Shown here: piece by piece, positions 2,062 to 14,596 of the stretch | Layout of the letters: every line of letters starts with the position of its first letter | Position numbering within the stretch: the first letter of the stretch is position 1 | Source: Actinomyces vulturis | GTDB taxonomy: Bacteria > Actinomycetota > Actinomycetes > Actinomycetales > Actinomycetaceae | Length of the DNA stretch: 64,000 nt | Assembly: GCF_001687305.1 (NCBI RefSeq) | Contig: NZ_KV700386.1 | Coordinates: forward strand, 186,001-250,000 | Direction of reading: 5' to 3' | Program-made: the position numbers and the translations under genes | Notes under the pieces: generated by a model | What the model was told of the DNA's origin: nothing | The model's input: only the letters and a program-made list of their open reading frames with translations | The model's database searches: none

Positions 2062-3279
2062 TTGCCAGGATCGGTGTGGGCCGTGGCCATCAGTCAAGGT
2101 TTCCAAGCCCTTGCCACAATCTTCTTTCTTCTCTCCGTCACTATCAATGGTGTCACTAATGACAATCTCATCGGGCTTGGTCTTACTTTTGCTGCTTGTA
2201 GTCTTCCTATGATCATCACTCGGTGGAGTATTTGCAGACCGATACAGCGCTGTGACTATTGCGCCGATAAGCCAAATTGTCAGGAGTGTTATTTATCTTT
2301 TCAGCGCAATCACTGTTGCCCTGTACGGTCTAGGCTGGTCACTTCAGGTCCTTGTTCTCATCACAGGTATTGCTCATGCTGCAGGCACTCCAAGTCTCTA
2401 CGCACTCTTGCCAGCACTGGTTGATGAGGCTAACAACATGCGAGCCAATGCCTTAGTGCGGACTTTCCGTCACTTCGTTTCTGGTATGGGAACTCCACTA
2501 GCAGTAACGCTAGCGTTGGTGACATCTGATGCCACGGTTATCGGATTATCCGCAGTGGTGATGGCCCTAACCGCTATCGCATTAGGAGGCGTTCACATTG
2601 ACAATCACGCTACGCCAGAGGCCTCGTTGCTCTCTGACATTCGTAGTCTTGGTGCTGTTATTCGTGCTAATCGTGTGATGGTGACTCTTATCGGATATTA
2701 GGCAATCATTCTTACCGTGGAAGGGGCGGTTGCTTCCATCCTTGCTCCTGGCGCAGTCATTCATCTCACTGCTCCAGGGACATGGTCTTTAGTATCGGCA
2801 AGTTCCGCTGCGGGATACATCCTCGGCTTACTCATATCGTTGCGTTTGCCTACTGTTCGTTACCTGTTAGCAGGTTCTGTGGGATTGATGTCTTTGGCAA
2901 CAGTGCCACTGTTTGCTTTTGCCTATAGCGCCGACCCGCTTATTTGGTGTCTTGCTGGCGGCATCGGAGGAATAGGACTGGAATTATCGGGAGTCTTTTG
3001 TGGGACAGTTCTTCCAACACGTACCTGCGGCTCAGTGATGACAGCGCCAATCGGAGTCTTTTGGGGCCAGTTCTTCAAACACCTACCCAACGTGAGTATG
3101 TAGGTCGCTTATCGAGTTGTGATTATGCCGTGAACTTTGGTTTTTGCTGATCGGTTATGCAATTGCGGGCTTGATAAGCAATGTGTCTTACACTCAACCG
3201 CTCCTTATAGGAAATAGGAATCTTCCTCGTCGTTACTGCATTAATCACCACTACGGCCACCATCCCTGTTGACCGCAAG
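2062..3279 (+). pseudogene. Decayed MFS-type transporter
   Basis: Remnant of a major facilitator superfamily permease, recognised from hydrophobic segments and an MFS motif A (GGVFADRYS). It is broken several times. An extra A near 2218 shifts the frame exactly where IILGGVFADR would be read. A TAG stop sits in frame at 2699-2701 between two matching halves. A frameshift near 2996-2999 separates LELSGV from the continuing LWDSS segment. Another shift lies near 3120, and a 7-bp tandem duplication (ATAGGAA twice, 3207-3220) breaks the last helix. The N-terminus also lacks a proper start. Neighbours are uvrB upstream and the terC leader downstream. The substrate cannot be inferred. Confidence 0.85.
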
Positions 3280-3347
3280 CACCACAGCACTATGTGATGT
3301 CACTTGCAAAGAACCTTTCAGTGCACTGAGGACGCGGAACTACCCCT

Positions 3348-3353
3348 TAGAAT
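3348..3353 (+). promoter_or_regulatory. Probable -10 element of the terC leader transcript
   Basis: TAGAAT lies about 14 bases before the first base of the riboswitch P1 stem, which would place the transcript start near 3360. The -35 region is weak. This is an inference from position and similarity to TANNNT. Confidence 0.4.
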
Positions 3354-3366
3354 GAACCGTCCACAC

Positions 3367-3518
3367 GGAGGGGAGTACTCCCACCAACAGTGACGTCGTC
3401 ATCACGGCCTCTGGTAAGCAGACGTAAACCAGCGCCCGGCGTCACCGGCCACACTGCGACGACTCACGCTACGGCGTCGGAGAACACTCGCGAGAAACAG
3501 TGGCGGGAAGAGACCTCC
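3367..3518 (+). promoter_or_regulatory. yybP-ykoY type (Mn2+) riboswitch aptamer upstream of terC
   Basis: The leader matches the known yybP-ykoY architecture. P1 is GGAGG (3367-3371) with CCTCC (3514-3518). The conserved GGAGTA loop follows the 5' P1 strand (3372-3377). P2 is GTGACG (3390-3395) with CGTCAC (3440-3445), flanked by TCGTCA (3396-3401) and CCGGC (3436-3440). P3 is CTGGT (3411-3415) with ACCAG (3428-3432). A second leg has CACTG (3452-3456) with CAGTG (3498-3502) and CGACG (3457-3461) with CGTCG (3475-3479). GAGACC precedes the 3' P1 strand. This family binds Mn2+ and is known upstream of TerC/Alx, MntP and Mn/Ca P-type ATPases. A covariance-model search was not possible here, so the call rests on manual alignment. 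Confidence 0.85.
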
Positions 3519-3551
3519 GGTACCAACCCCGTACCGGAGGAGCATTCATTG
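3514..3551 (+). promoter_or_regulatory. Riboswitch expression platform: SD-sequestering hairpin and terC start
   Basis: CCTCCGGTAC (3514-3523) is perfectly complementary to GTACCGGAGG (3531-3540), with a 7-base loop. The 3' arm runs into the GGAGGAG ribosome binding site of terC, 6-7 bases before TTG 3549. The first five bases of the 5' arm are also the 3' strand of the aptamer P1 stem, so the two helices exclude each other. Inference: ligand-stabilised P1 frees the ribosome binding site, giving a translational ON switch with Mn2+. Confidence 0.8.
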
Positions 3552-4541
3552 CACGTCCATACTCTCGGATGGATTGGCCTGGCTGCCATCGTCCTGACCC
3601 TCATCACTATTGACTTCGTTGGCCACACCCGTAAATCCCACGCTCCCAGTCTCAAAGAAGCAGCAATCTGGTCTGGTTTCTATATTTTCTTAGCCGCCTC
3701 CTTTGGCGTCATGGTGTGGGCAATTTATGGCAGCCATTACGCCGCCCAGTACTACGCAGGTTGGCTTACCGAATGGTCCCTGAGCGTCGATAATCTCTTC
3801 GTCTTCATCATCATCCTGGGAGCCTTCCGCGTCCCGCGCGAGTACCAGCAAAAAGCCCTGCTTTTCGGTATTGCCACAGCACTTATTCTCCGACTTATTT
3901 TCATTCTGCTTGGCGCCGCTCTTATCGAACACTTCAGTTGGGTTTTCTACTTCTTCGGAGCATTTCTCCTGTGGACCGCCTATAGCCAAGCCAAAGAATC
4001 CGGCGGATCTGAGGAAGACGACGAATACGAAGAAAACCAATTTACGCGAATCATTCGCAAGGTTCTGCCCACTACCGATGGATTTGTGGGTGACAAACTC
4101 TTTCACCGCGTTAACCACCGCACCTACGTCACTCCTCTCTTCATTGCCATCATCGCCCTGGGCAGCGCAGACATCATGTTTGCTTTCGACTCCATCCCGG
4201 CGATCTTTGGCCTGACCCAAGAGCCTTATTTAGTATTTGCAGCCAATGCCTTCGCATTGCTCGGTCTTCGTCAACTCTTCTTCCTTATCGATGGTCTACT
4301 TGAACGTCTCATTTACCTCAACTACGGTCTGGCCATCATTCTGGGATTCATTGGTCTGAAACTCATCAACCACGCGCTGCACCACAATGAAATCCCTTTC
4401 ATCAACGGTGGTCACCCCATCACCGCTATTCCCGAGCCATCAACCATGCTGTCCCTGGGCGTTATTGTGGTCACCCTTGTGCTTACCGCGGTAACCTCAC
4501 TCCTAGCAACCCGTGGACAGGATCAGGTCACCAAGGCCTAA
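3549..4541 (+). CDS. TerC/Alx family membrane protein (probable Mn2+ export or metal homeostasis)
   Basis: 330-residue integral membrane protein of the TerC (Alx) family, several members of which export Mn2+. The two conserved acidic motifs are present: LSVDNLFVF (Asp about 81) and FAFDSIPAI (Asp about 214), within about nine hydrophobic segments; an acidic loop (SGGSEEDDEYEEN) lies between. The start TTG 3549 is chosen because GGAGGAG lies 6-7 bases upstream and the protein then begins like other TerC members, directly at the first helix. An in-frame GTG at 3390 would add 53 hydrophilic residues, but that stretch is the riboswitch and is open by chance. A P-type ATPase gene starts 70 bases downstream with no terminator between, so the two are likely co-transcribed. 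Confidence 0.93.
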   Translation: MHVHTLGWIGLAAIVLTLITIDFVGHTRKSHAPSLKEAAIWSGFYIFLAASFGVMVWAIYGSHYAAQYYAGWLTEWSLSVDNLFVFIIILGAFRVPREYQQKALLFGIATALILRLIFILLGAALIEHFSWVFYFFGAFLLWTAYSQAKESGGSEEDDEYEENQFTRIIRKVLPTTDGFVGDKLFHRVNHRTYVTPLFIAIIALGSADIMFAFDSIPAIFGLTQEPYLVFAANAFALLGLRQLFFLIDGLLERLIYLNYGLAIILGFIGLKLINHALHHNEIPFINGGHPITAIPEPSTMLSLGVIVVTLVLTAVTSLLATRGQDQVTKA

Positions 4542-4611: not shown

Positions 4612-7065
4612 GTGAGTACACCCGTGCCTGTGGAACCAACCGACGGACTTGTGGACGCCGGCGGCCTCACTCAGGCGCGGGTCGCAGAACTCACCCACGA
4701 CGGTTACACCAACGCCTACAAAGAACGCTCTTCACGTTCGGCTGCACAGATCCTGAGAGCGAATATCTTCACGATCTTTAACGCCATCCTTGCTGGCGCT
4801 GTTGTTATTGTTCTGGCCGTTGGCCACTGGCAAGACGCCGTGTTCGGATTTGTTCTGCTTATCAACACGGCCACCGGCACTATTGCCGAAATCCGTGCTA
4901 AGCGCGCACTGGATAAACTCAGCGTACTTGCTGCCCCTACAGCTACCGTGATCCGCGGCGGAGAAGTAGCCACCATTGAGGCAGAAAAACTGGTGCTCGG
5001 TGACTTGATGAAAATCAGTGCCGGTCAGCAAATCCCTGCTGATGGTGTGGTCCACGAATCCTCCGGCGTGGAAATCGACGAATCCATTCTCACCGGCGAA
5101 TCGGACACAGTTCGTAAACGTCGTGGCGAGATGGTGATGAGTGGAACTACCGTCACCGCAGGCAGCGCATTAATGGAAGTTACTGCCGTGGGTGCTCATG
5201 CCTACGCACGGCGCTTGGCTGCCCAAGCCAAGAAATATTCTGTGGTCCGTAGCGAACTGCAAGAAGGTACGAACAAGGTCTTACGCTGGATCAGTTGGGT
5301 TATCGTACCGATGACGATCCTTCTGGTCTGGTCTCAACTGCGAGTAGCCGGGGGAGTAGTGACCTCTTGGGATGATGGTGCTTGGAAACCTGCGGTAGTC
5401 CTCGCCGTTGCTGGCGTGGTGGGCATGGTCCCGCAGGGCCTAGTTCTGCTCACCAGCGTGAACTTCGCGGCCGCATCGATATCATTGGCCCGTAAGAACG
5501 TCCTGGTTCAGGAACTCCCTGCCGTAGAAGTCCTCGCCCGCGTGGACAGTCTCTGCCTGGATAAAACCGGCACGCTCACCACCGGCGCCATAGGCCTTCA
5601 TGACGTCAAACCCTGCGGGGACTACACCCAGGACACCGTCAACGCTGCTCTCCTCGCCCTTGCACGAGTAGGCGAAGCGAACGCCACCGCCACTGCTATT
5701 GACTCTGGCCTGGGAGAGTCCATTACCGCACTTGATGTTGTAGATTTTGTTCCCTTCTCCTCGGCCCGCAAGTGGAGCGCCATCCGCACGAATGCTCCGC
5801 AATCACATGGCACCTGGGTGCTTGGCGCTCCTGAGATTGTTCTTGCCCAGGCTGAGGGCGGCGAGCACACTCTCGCTATCGTGAACGAGATTGCGTGCGG
5901 GGGAGTGCGTGTGGTGGCCCTGGCTCATTCACCAGCCACTATCAATGCCTCCGACGCCGAACCCTCACTCCCATCGCCCCTCACCCCAGCCGCTTTGGTC
6001 ACCCTCGGTGAAAAAGTTCGCCCCGATGCAGCACAGACGTTGGCCTACTTCAAAGATCAAGGTGTGCAAGTCCGCATTATCAGTGGTGACAACCCCACCA
6101 CTGTGGCTGCGATCGCTGCCAGTGTTGGCGTGAGCGCACCTGATGGTGGCCCTGTGGAGGGTATTGATGCCCGCACACTTCCACACTTGGCAGATAATCC
6201 CCGCGGTCTGGCTCAGGCACTGGAAGATGGCCGCGTCTTTGGTCGCGTCACTCCTGAGCAAAAGCGTGACTTCGTCTCCGCACTCCAGTCCCGAGGCCAT
6301 GTGGTGGCCATGACGGGTGACGGCGTCAATGATGCTCTCGCTCTCAAAGATGCTGACCTCGGTATTGCTATGGGTAACGCCGCTCCCGCCACCAAGGCTG
6401 TCGCGCGACTCGTTCTTCTCGACGGTCAGTTCTCTTCACTGCCCAGTGTGGTTGCCCAAGGACGCCGCGTTATGGCCAATATGGAACGCGTCGCCTCACT
6501 CTTCCTCGCCAAAACCACCTACGCCGCACTCATTGCACTCGTGGTGGCAATGTTGGGAATTGGGTACCCTTTCTTGCCACGTCAATTAACGATTGTGGGT
6601 TCACTGACGATCGGTATCCCTGCGTTCATCATGGCGCTTGCCCCCACGTCGCAGCGCTACCGTTCTGGGTTCCTTGAGCGTGTTCTTCGTTTAGCCGTAC
6701 CATGCGGCCTGGTGGTCGGCATTGGTGTGCTTGTGACTCGTACGTGGCTGGTGTGGACCCATACCCCCGATCTTCAGGTGGCAACCGGTTCCACGCTGGT
6801 GTTGGTGGCTGGAGGCCTGTGGCTGCTGTCTATGACGGCTCGCCCCTGGGAACTGTGGCGCATCGCGTTGGTAACTGTCATGGCTGCGAGCGCCGTGCTT
6901 GCCGTGTTCATTGAACCGGTCCGTCATTTCTTTGCCCTTGAATGGCCCGATGCTCATACCTGGATGGTTATTGCCATCATGGGAACGATTGTTTGTGCTG
7001 CTGTTGAGGCTGCGGGGCGATTCGGTGCTGTTGTTGAACTACCGTCACGCAAGTCTCGCCGCTAA
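4612..7065 (+). CDS. CtpE-like P-type cation-translocating ATPase
   Basis: 817-residue P-type ATPase that resembles mycobacterial CtpE (a P2-like Ca2+ transporter) throughout. Motifs: TGES in the actuator domain (about 161-164), the phosphorylation motif DKTGTLT with Asp about 317, TGDGVNDALALKDADLG (from about 568), and the C-terminal FLPRQLTIVGSLTIGIPAF helix region typical of the CtpE group. The M4 motif reads PQGL (about 274-277) where Ca2+ and many other P2 pumps have PEGL, so the usual M4 carboxylate is Gln. The GTG start at 4612 is preceded by AAGGAG with a 5-6 base gap; an earlier in-frame GTG at 4585 lacks this. The position 70 bp behind the riboswitch-controlled terC suggests Mn2+ and/or Ca2+ as substrate; this is inference. 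Confidence 0.92.
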   Translation: MSTPVPVEPTDGLVDAGGLTQARVAELTHDGYTNAYKERSSRSAAQILRANIFTIFNAILAGAVVIVLAVGHWQDAVFGFVLLINTATGTIAEIRAKRALDKLSVLAAPTATVIRGGEVATIEAEKLVLGDLMKISAGQQIPADGVVHESSGVEIDESILTGESDTVRKRRGEMVMSGTTVTAGSALMEVTAVGAHAYARRLAAQAKKYSVVRSELQEGTNKVLRWISWVIVPMTILLVWSQLRVAGGVVTSWDDGAWKPAVVLAVAGVVGMVPQGLVLLTSVNFAAASISLARKNVLVQELPAVEVLARVDSLCLDKTGTLTTGAIGLHDVKPCGDYTQDTVNAALLALARVGEANATATAIDSGLGESITALDVVDFVPFSSARKWSAIRTNAPQSHGTWVLGAPEIVLAQAEGGEHTLAIVNEIACGGVRVVALAHSPATINASDAEPSLPSPLTPAALVTLGEKVRPDAAQTLAYFKDQGVQVRIISGDNPTTVAAIAASVGVSAPDGGPVEGIDARTLPHLADNPRGLAQALEDGRVFGRVTPEQKRDFVSALQSRGHVVAMTGDGVNDALALKDADLGIAMGNAAPATKAVARLVLLDGQFSSLPSVVAQGRRVMANMERVASLFLAKTTYAALIALVVAMLGIGYPFLPRQLTIVGSLTIGIPAFIMALAPTSQRYRSGFLERVLRLAVPCGLVVGIGVLVTRTWLVWTHTPDLQVATGSTLVLVAGGLWLLSMTARPWELWRIALVTVMAASAVLAVFIEPVRHFFALEWPDAHTWMVIAIMGTIVCAAVEAAGRFGAVVELPSRKSRR

Positions 7066-14116: not shown

Positions 14117-14188
14117 TGGGCGATACTGGGTTCGAACCAGTGACCTCTTCGGTGTGAACGAAGCGCGCTACCACTGCGCCAATCGCCC
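14117..14188 (-). tRNA. tRNA-Val, anticodon CAC
   Basis: 72-nt tRNA on the minus strand. The acceptor GGGCGAT pairs with ATCGCCC, followed by discriminator A. The anticodon loop is TTCACAC within the stem CTTCG/CGAAG, so the anticodon is CAC, decoding GUG. The T arm contains GGTTCGAACCC. CCA is not encoded. It differs at only 7 of 72 positions from the tRNA-Val(GAC) on the opposite strand at 14522. Confidence 0.95.
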
Positions 14189-14338
14189 GTGCTGAAACAG
14201 GTTAGTCGCAACAGTGTCATTTGAGCAAATCGCCTTGCGGTGAGGTGGATCACCGGCGAGCCAATTTGCGAAAAGGGTAGGAGGTAGTGTTATTGTTTTC
14301 CAGCACCGCGAAGGTTTGGTCTTCATGCGGTACGCAAT

Positions 14339-14414
14339 GCGGATGTGGCTCAGTTGGTAGAGCATCACCTTGCCAAGGTGAGGGTCGCGGGTTCGAGTCC
14401 CGTCATCCGCTCCA
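14339..14414 (+). tRNA. tRNA-Gly, anticodon GCC
   Basis: 73-nt tRNA body (14339-14411) with the 3' CCA encoded at 14412-14414. The acceptor GCGGATG pairs with CATCCGC, discriminator T. The anticodon stem and loop is CACCTTGCCAAGGTG, so the anticodon is GCC. The T loop is GTTCGAGTC. First of three plus-strand tRNA genes. Confidence 0.96.
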
Positions 14415-14449
14415 TGGAGCCGGGAGCGCCCAGCCTCCAGCTTCACGAT

Positions 14450-14520
14450 GGTGGGTTGGCCGAGTGGCTAGGCACCGGCCTGCAAAGCCGTTTACACCGG
14501 TTCGAATCCGGTACCCACCT
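14450..14520 (+). tRNA. tRNA-Cys, anticodon GCA
   Basis: 71-nt tRNA. The acceptor GGTGGGT pairs with ACCCACC, discriminator T. The anticodon loop CTGCAAA gives GCA. The T arm is CCGGTTCGAATCCGG. CCA is not encoded; tRNA-Val begins two bases later. Confidence 0.95.
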
Positions 14521-14521
14521 C

Positions 14522-14596
14522 GGGCGATTGGCGCAGCGGGAGCGCGCTTCCCTGACACGGAAGAGGTCACTGGTTCGATCCCAGTATCGCCCACCA
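14522..14596 (+). tRNA. tRNA-Val, anticodon GAC
   Basis: 72-nt tRNA body (14522-14593) with CCA encoded at 14594-14596. The acceptor GGGCGAT pairs with ATCGCCC. The anticodon stem CTTCC/GGAAG encloses CTGACAC, giving GAC. It is nearly identical to the minus-strand tRNA-Val(CAC) about 330 bp away. A clear terminator follows. Confidence 0.95.

Follow-up and report, generated by a model that had tools for sequence, protein, structure and literature searches.

The leader described here lies upstream of terC in Actinomyces vulturis, which has a genome of 2.2 Mb. The analysis was centred on a stretch of 64,000 nucleotides of this genome, referred to below as the window. Along the locus, uvrB is followed by a broken-looking MFS transporter region, then by the leader, by terC and by a gene encoding a P-type ATPase (Table 1). 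The MFS transporter-like region (2252-3103) is split into two ORFs, which gives it the look of a broken gene; ORF 2252-2701 has an MFS_1 match under the Pfam cut-off and ORF 2717-3103 has no match. The closest relatives of TerC within the named collection compared were found in Schaalia, Actinomyces and Georgenia (60-68% identity). TerC scores 370.6 bits against the NCBIfam model TIGR03718 R_switched_Alx (cut-off 246.4), and Pfam TerC was matched in the longer reading frame used for the Pfam scan. The gene directly behind the leader belongs to a metal transport family known as a yybP-ykoY target (TIGR03718 R_switched_Alx). A full Rfam scan of the window returned four tRNAs and nothing else; these four tRNA genes are clustered at 14117-14593.

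Table 1. Features of the terC leader and of the two genes behind it, with positions in the window.
Feature	Position	Strand	Remarks
Presumed promoter -10-like hexamer TAGAAT	3348..3353	+	loose hexamer kept upstream of aptamer
P1.1, 5' strand CGGAGG, identical to Shine-Dalgarno strand	3366..3371	+	pairs with 3514-3519
L1, 5' side	3372..3378	+	conserved GGGGAGUA covers 3370-3377
P1.2, 5' strand	3379..3382	+	pairs with 3505-3508
5-nt linker at the P2 position of four-way-junction members; P2 absent	3383..3387	+	
P3.1, 5' strand	3388..3398	+	pairs with 3437-3447, one mismatch
L3, putative metal-site loop UCAUCAC	3399..3405	+	A3401 aligned to A41 (L. lactis) / A48 (X. oryzae)
P3.2 and apical hairpin	3406..3436	+	3406-3408/3434-3436, 3411-3415/3428-3432
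P3.1, 3' strand	3437..3447	+	first bases are the conserved CGG
P4 with long hairpin insertion	3448..3504	+	3448-3452/3500-3504
P1.2 3' strand (3505-3508), L1 3' side AGAGA (3509-3513), P1.1 3' strand CCUCCG (3514-3519)	3505..3519	+	
Expression platform, 10-bp hairpin hiding Shine-Dalgarno GGAGG (3536-3540)	3514..3540	+	stem 3514-3523/3531-3540, loop 3524-3530
terC, encoding a 330-aa TerC family protein of the Alx type	3549..4541	+	TIGR03718, Pfam TerC, start position common to relatives
P-type ATPase gene, start GTG 4612	4612..7065	+	Pfam E1-E2_ATPase; NCBIfam TIGR01494 above cut-off

A promoter with a transcript start near 3360 is presumed from a loose hexamer, TA[ACG]A[ACT]T, that is found 11-20 nt upstream of the aptamer in all 30 genus loci. 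A still looser pattern precedes the aptamer in 12 of 29 loci from the wider phylum. A promoter scan of 3200-3620 found no sigma-70 consensus promoter.

The preliminary description had read the leader as a manganese riboswitch of the yybP-ykoY class and had proposed helices P1, P2 and P3 together with the conserved loop bases of that class. P1 (as P1.1 and P1.2), P3 and the loop bases GGGGAGUA and UCAUCAC were all found at the positions given in Table 1. The L1 internal loop between P1.1 and P1.2 is present, with GGGGAGUA on its 5' side and AGA on its 3' side. The conservation of these elements was followed in two alignments, A1 (38 terC leaders from outside the window's genus, aligned by sequence only, none identical to any genus aptamer) and A2 (59 loci aligned by covariance model, among them the window's own copy, L124). 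The box GGGGAGTA occurs in 38/38 A1 and 58/59 A2 sequences; GGGGAGUA is invariant in A1 and present in 58/59 A2 rows. The L3 loop contains CGTCA in every A1 row and GTCA in every A2 row. The UCA that carries the putative Mn-contacting adenosine is invariant in both (38/38 and 59/59). The L3 adenosine is described as invariable in the class and contacts Mn2+ in crystals, where it is A41 of L. lactis, within UCAAUUC, and A48 of X. oryzae, within ACAUACU (PMC6754395). A3401 of the window is equated with this adenosine by alignment, not by structure.

The proposed P2 helix did not stand, as P1.2 and P3.1 are separated by only 5 nt (3383-3387). This linker measures 4-8 nt across all rows of A1 and 4-9 nt across all rows of A2. 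The third junction helix is P4, and the aptamer is a three-way form built from P1, P3 and P4. P2 and a four-way junction are not regarded here as required for yybP-ykoY membership, because the E. coli alx leader also has no room for P2 and a three-way form has been described for mgtA of S. pneumoniae.

The class assignment rests on comparison among terC leaders. A pattern search with the two boxes GGGGAGTA and RGAGACYT located both upstream of terC in 88 of 110 loci (89 with a slightly looser pattern), at a distance from the TerC match that is usually 118-223 nt and larger in 3 loci. The 22 loci missed by the pattern include 14 genus loci on the minus strand, which the one-strand search did not read. 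RNAalifold recovered P1.1, P1.2, P3.1, P3.2 and P4 from A1, with compensatory changes at 21 of 29 pairs, and a covariance model (R1) was built from these 38 leaders. R1 recovers the element in the 14 minus-strand loci and in L002, for a total of 103/110 terC loci; in the flanks of the remaining seven (L013, L029, L034, L038, L039, L049 and L073), no element was found at E<=1. The window is matched by R1 at 3365-3520 (66.2 bits, E 5.1e-14). The E. coli alx leader is matched over the whole model (40.9 bits, E 7.2e-8), and these two were the sole R1 matches at E<=10 in 86,002 bases. E. coli mntP was unmatched. In A2, which was fitted to the structure and so favours both figures, paired cells reach 92.7% (79.7% in shuffled alignments, with 0/500 shuffles as high) and the covariation score is 0.355 (0.137 shuffled; slid controls <=0.09). 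P1, P3 and P4 are backed by covariation in A1 and A2. The yybP-ykoY assignment is therefore supported by comparative evidence, through the R1 matches to both the window and alx. Judged by the R1 match, the leader is homologous to the E. coli alx riboswitch, a tested member of the family.

The element was found in all 49 genomes of the genus that were searched. R1 gives one match each in 48 of them; in the other (G030) the leader scores 19.5 bits and has one L3 base changed. The loci studied in detail are the best 30 of the 48 genus matches (L122-L151, own included), and all of these lead into TerC. Across the phylum, R1 matched 57 of 296 sampled genomes, the window's own included; this count is a lower bound because the search was strictly filtered. 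The phylum loci (L152-L180) were taken from the better-scoring R1 matches, with weaker members covered in less detail. Among the 27 of these 29 loci with readable downstream DNA (L156 and L178 have too little), the downstream gene encodes TerC in 20, a P-type ATPase in 5 and another protein in 2. The five ATPase loci (L157, L159, L160, L170 and L174) carry the same riboswitch type before P-type ATPases about 30% identical to that of the window. At L180 the R1 match is followed by an unusual target, a gene for an M50 peptidase-like protein that has a CBS domain, and at L172 by a gene for a 288-aa protein without a Pfam match at E<=0.001.

Between the aptamer and terC lies the expression platform. 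An exact 10-bp hairpin, CCUCCGGUAC/GUACCGGAGG (3514-3523/3531-3540), pairs the P1.1 3' strand with the Shine-Dalgarno sequence, just as had been proposed. The sequence CGGAGG occurs twice, in the P1.1 5' strand (3366-3371) and in the Shine-Dalgarno strand (3535-3540), and the two copies are rivals for CCUCCG at 3514-3519. The 10-bp stem is present in 30/30 genus loci examined, own included (24 with Watson-Crick pairs throughout, 6 with one G-U). Variants such as CGAAGG/CCTTCG/CGAAGG alter all three strands jointly. More widely, a Shine-Dalgarno stem of >=7 bp was found in 91 of 135 distinct loci, compared with 15% of controls with shuffled downstream sequence; the stem falls below 7 bp in the other 44. 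The 135 loci are what remains of 148 after removal of 11 duplicate aptamer sequences and 2 loci with too little downstream DNA.

The predicted minimum-energy fold without ligand is the state with the Shine-Dalgarno hidden and P3 and P4 formed (-75.2 kcal/mol, vs -69.2 kcal/mol for the P1.1 state). The pairing probabilities in this calculation are 1.000 for the Shine-Dalgarno stem, 0.98 for P3.1 and 0.88 for P4, and forcing P1.1 costs about 6 kcal/mol. A resting state of this kind is what an ON switch would be expected to have. With P1.1 forced, four of the five bases of the Shine-Dalgarno remain paired in the prediction, to other parts of the sequence. The conservation of the competing hairpins provides comparative support for the proposed translational control by competition between P1 and the Shine-Dalgarno.

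Of the 30 genus terC loci L082-L111, the window's own among them, 29 have a relative of the window's P-type ATPase next to terC; L100 has none within its flank. An ATPase relative also lies beside terC in three Schaalia loci (L002, L004 and L006) and in Actinomyces locus L003; none was found within 1.5 kb of terC in the other 76 of the 110 terC loci. The ATPase gene probably comes second in the regulated operon and would then be co-transcribed with terC. Two terC copies are present in 10 of 49 genus genomes (G005, G007, G009, G011, G013, G017, G026, G033, G038 and G045), with one R1 match in each of these; G029 carries terC fragments and was left out of the count. Taken together, the ATPase gene order and the numbers of terC copies and R1 matches suggest a small metal-efflux regulon.

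It is very likely that positions 3365-3540 form a P2-less, three-way yybP-ykoY Mn2+ riboswitch that acts as a translational ON switch for terC. At low Mn2+, the CCUCC strand (3514-3519) would pair with GGAGG (3536-3540) in the 10-bp hairpin, and the hidden Shine-Dalgarno would leave terC untranslated. Binding of Mn2+ between L1 and L3 would stabilise P1.1, whose 5' strand would reclaim CCUCC and free the Shine-Dalgarno. TerC would then be made from TTG 3549, probably together with the P-type ATPase, and through their putative transport function the cytosolic metal would be lowered. Counted against this reading were the silence of the Rfam model RF00080, the missing P2 of the crystallised four-way architecture, the failure of R1 to match mntP, the 7 of 110 terC loci in whose flanks no element was found, the 44 of 135 loci with a Shine-Dalgarno stem below 7 bp and the pairing of Shine-Dalgarno bases that persists in the forced P1.1 state.

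The aptamer may have the same fold and another ligand, either Ca2+ or both Mn2+ and Ca2+, with its main role in Ca/Mn efflux by the P-type ATPase. The three-way aptamer of S. pneumoniae mgtA, which controls a P-type ATPase, is reported to have a higher affinity for Ca2+ than for Mn2+ (PMC9495176), and an ATPase of this kind lies directly behind terC in the window. Against this, the same report has mgtA transcription activated better by Mn2+ than by Ca2+ (PMC9495176). The putative Mn-contacting adenosine and both loops are conserved in the window, and the first gene is of the Alx type. The calcium alternative is thus considered unlikely.

The Mn2+ riboswitch could also switch by transcription termination rather than translation. 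Among the RF00080-type members elsewhere in the phylum, inspection by eye often shows a final hairpin with a T run behind it. At 3200-3620 of the window, no intrinsic terminator-like site was found, and the alternative hairpin holds the Shine-Dalgarno and stops 8 nt short of the start codon, which makes termination very improbable here.

A covariance match to RF00080 had been predicted in the preliminary description, with the lack of one to be held against the class; none was found at 3100-3700, even at E<=10. As a control, the same model was applied to E. coli. It misses the alx riboswitch at E<=10 and gives mntP 44.9 bits, 0.1 bit short of the cut-off of 45. Because RF00080 misses alx, its silence at the window is uninformative, and RF00080 was rejected as a direct test of the class. 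A match elsewhere in the window's genome (C1:379713-379741; 8 bits, E 5.7) was set aside as chance. Within the genus, 16 of 49 genomes had RF00080 matches at E<=10, of which none was over the cut-off and none lay at a terC leader by position (best match 20 bits, E 0.002). Rfam gave 0 matches at the gathering score in 20 related terC loci, and 2 matches, both unrelated, at E<=1 in 17 loci. In the 296 sampled phylum genomes, RF00080 matched 13 at E<=0.01 (1 over the cut-off), again a lower bound because of strict filtering. Compared with the 57 genomes matched by R1, this means that an RF00080 no-match cannot count as absence. No genome is common to the two lists; the handles suggest that both samples come from one draw.

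A hairpin between P1.2 and P3.1, identified as P2, was seen by eye in 11 of the 12 RF00080 loci that were fetched. The exception, L181, has about 14 nt there and no clear hairpin; it is also the sole RF00080 match above the cut-off in the phylum sample (49.1 bits). Since L181 passes the cut-off without a clear P2, the absence of P2 was ruled out as the whole reason for the RF00080 misses. Differences in base composition and divergence of the sequences may also contribute. R1 matches 8 of the 12 fetched loci at E<0.05, which indicates that R1-type and RF00080-type members are homologous; the best of these is L181 (34.1 bits), where the R1 match overlaps that of RF00080.

The silence of RF00080 is the point in favour of an unrelated structured terC leader that merely resembles yybP-ykoY, such as the Rfam terC motif RF03067, with which the leader has the terC name in common. 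This model has 59 positions and gave no match over the cut-off in 11 genus genomes (150 candidates scored per genome); the window's own genome (150 candidates scored) yielded nothing even at E<=10. Weak matches at E<=10 in 9 of the 11 genomes, none above the cut-off, led to its rejection as the family. E. coli alx, by comparison, is matched by R1 from end to end (E 7e-8), and an unrelated leader is hardly credible.

The preliminary description also held that the reading frame stays open through the riboswitch and that terC starts at TTG 3549. The open frame from 3390 to 4541 is real and its openness reaches back to the TAG at 3348. TTG 3549, 8 nt after GGAGG, is supported as the start by its position in genus relatives, behind a strong Shine-Dalgarno. 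The distance from aptamer to start is 26-28 nt in 27 of 29 genus loci and 34 nt in two, where the rule picked a later in-frame GTG; the survey covers 29 of the 30 genus loci, with L127 lacking a start by the rule used. The TIGR03718 alignment begins at TerC residue 4. The upstream frame was rejected as coding evidence because it is not conserved: an in-frame stop lies between the aptamer and the terC start in 17/29 genus loci. As 124 of 177 frames through aptamers are open, openness is common, and chance is the best explanation of the long frame. A TerC that starts at GTG 3390, with the RNA fold incidental, would account for the frame open from 3348, but is barely tenable given these stops and the frequency of open frames, the compensatory changes that track an RNA structure, the position of GTG 3390 inside P3.1 and the start of relatives at the TTG 3549 position.

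The manganese riboswitch reading places terC, and probably the adjoining P-type ATPase gene, under predicted manganese control. A literature search found little on manganese control of terC or the ATPase in this bacterial group. The practical value lies in a corrected terC start codon in the genome, a predicted manganese regulon and a gap in the Rfam model. The yybP-ykoY manganese riboswitch class is established (PMC6754395, PMC9603457), and Corynebacteriaceae and Mycobacteriaceae are listed among the groups surveyed in 2013 for RNA motifs including yybP-ykoY (PMC3766115). The leader of the window belongs to this already known riboswitch family. It is not new in kind, since yybP-ykoY elements, their actinobacterial listings and the three-way mgtA form have already been described. 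A more tentative idea, for which the odds are somewhat unfavourable, is that the P2-less actinobacterial leaders make up a distinct Mn-riboswitch subclass largely invisible to Rfam. Such a subclass would join a three-way junction to a translational platform whose P1 5' strand is a copy of the Shine-Dalgarno, and would further have a TerC-ATPase operon and perhaps a shifted Mn2+/Ca2+ preference.

Several known systems resemble the leader in part. The C. glutamicum terC gene (cg2157) also has an actinobacterial terC leader, which scored 49.13 bits against RF00080 with the Rfam of the time; the 2013 report gives prediction and transcript only (PMC3890552). The S. pneumoniae mgtA element has a three-way-junction yybP-ykoY aptamer and a P-type ATPase as target, but it is described as acting on transcription, and its target is the ATPase gene and not terC (PMC9495176). 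The four-way yybP-ykoY members (E. coli mntP, L. lactis and X. oryzae) have L1, L3, P1, P3, P4 and the Mn-contacting adenosine in common with the window. Unlike the window, they have P2, in the mntP fold and in the four-way junction reported in PMC6754395, and RF00080 sees mntP (44.9 bits). Another such system is E. coli alx, reported as a Mn-responsive yybP-ykoY riboswitch (PMC9603457). The alx helices all differ from those of the window in sequence, GC is lower, and the leader as a whole has a greater length and another stretch ahead of its start. In common with the window, alx has the L1 sequence GGGGAGUA, the L3 sequence UCGUCAUyACG, the motifs CCGG and GAGACCU, no room for P2, a full-length match to R1 and an Alx gene downstream.
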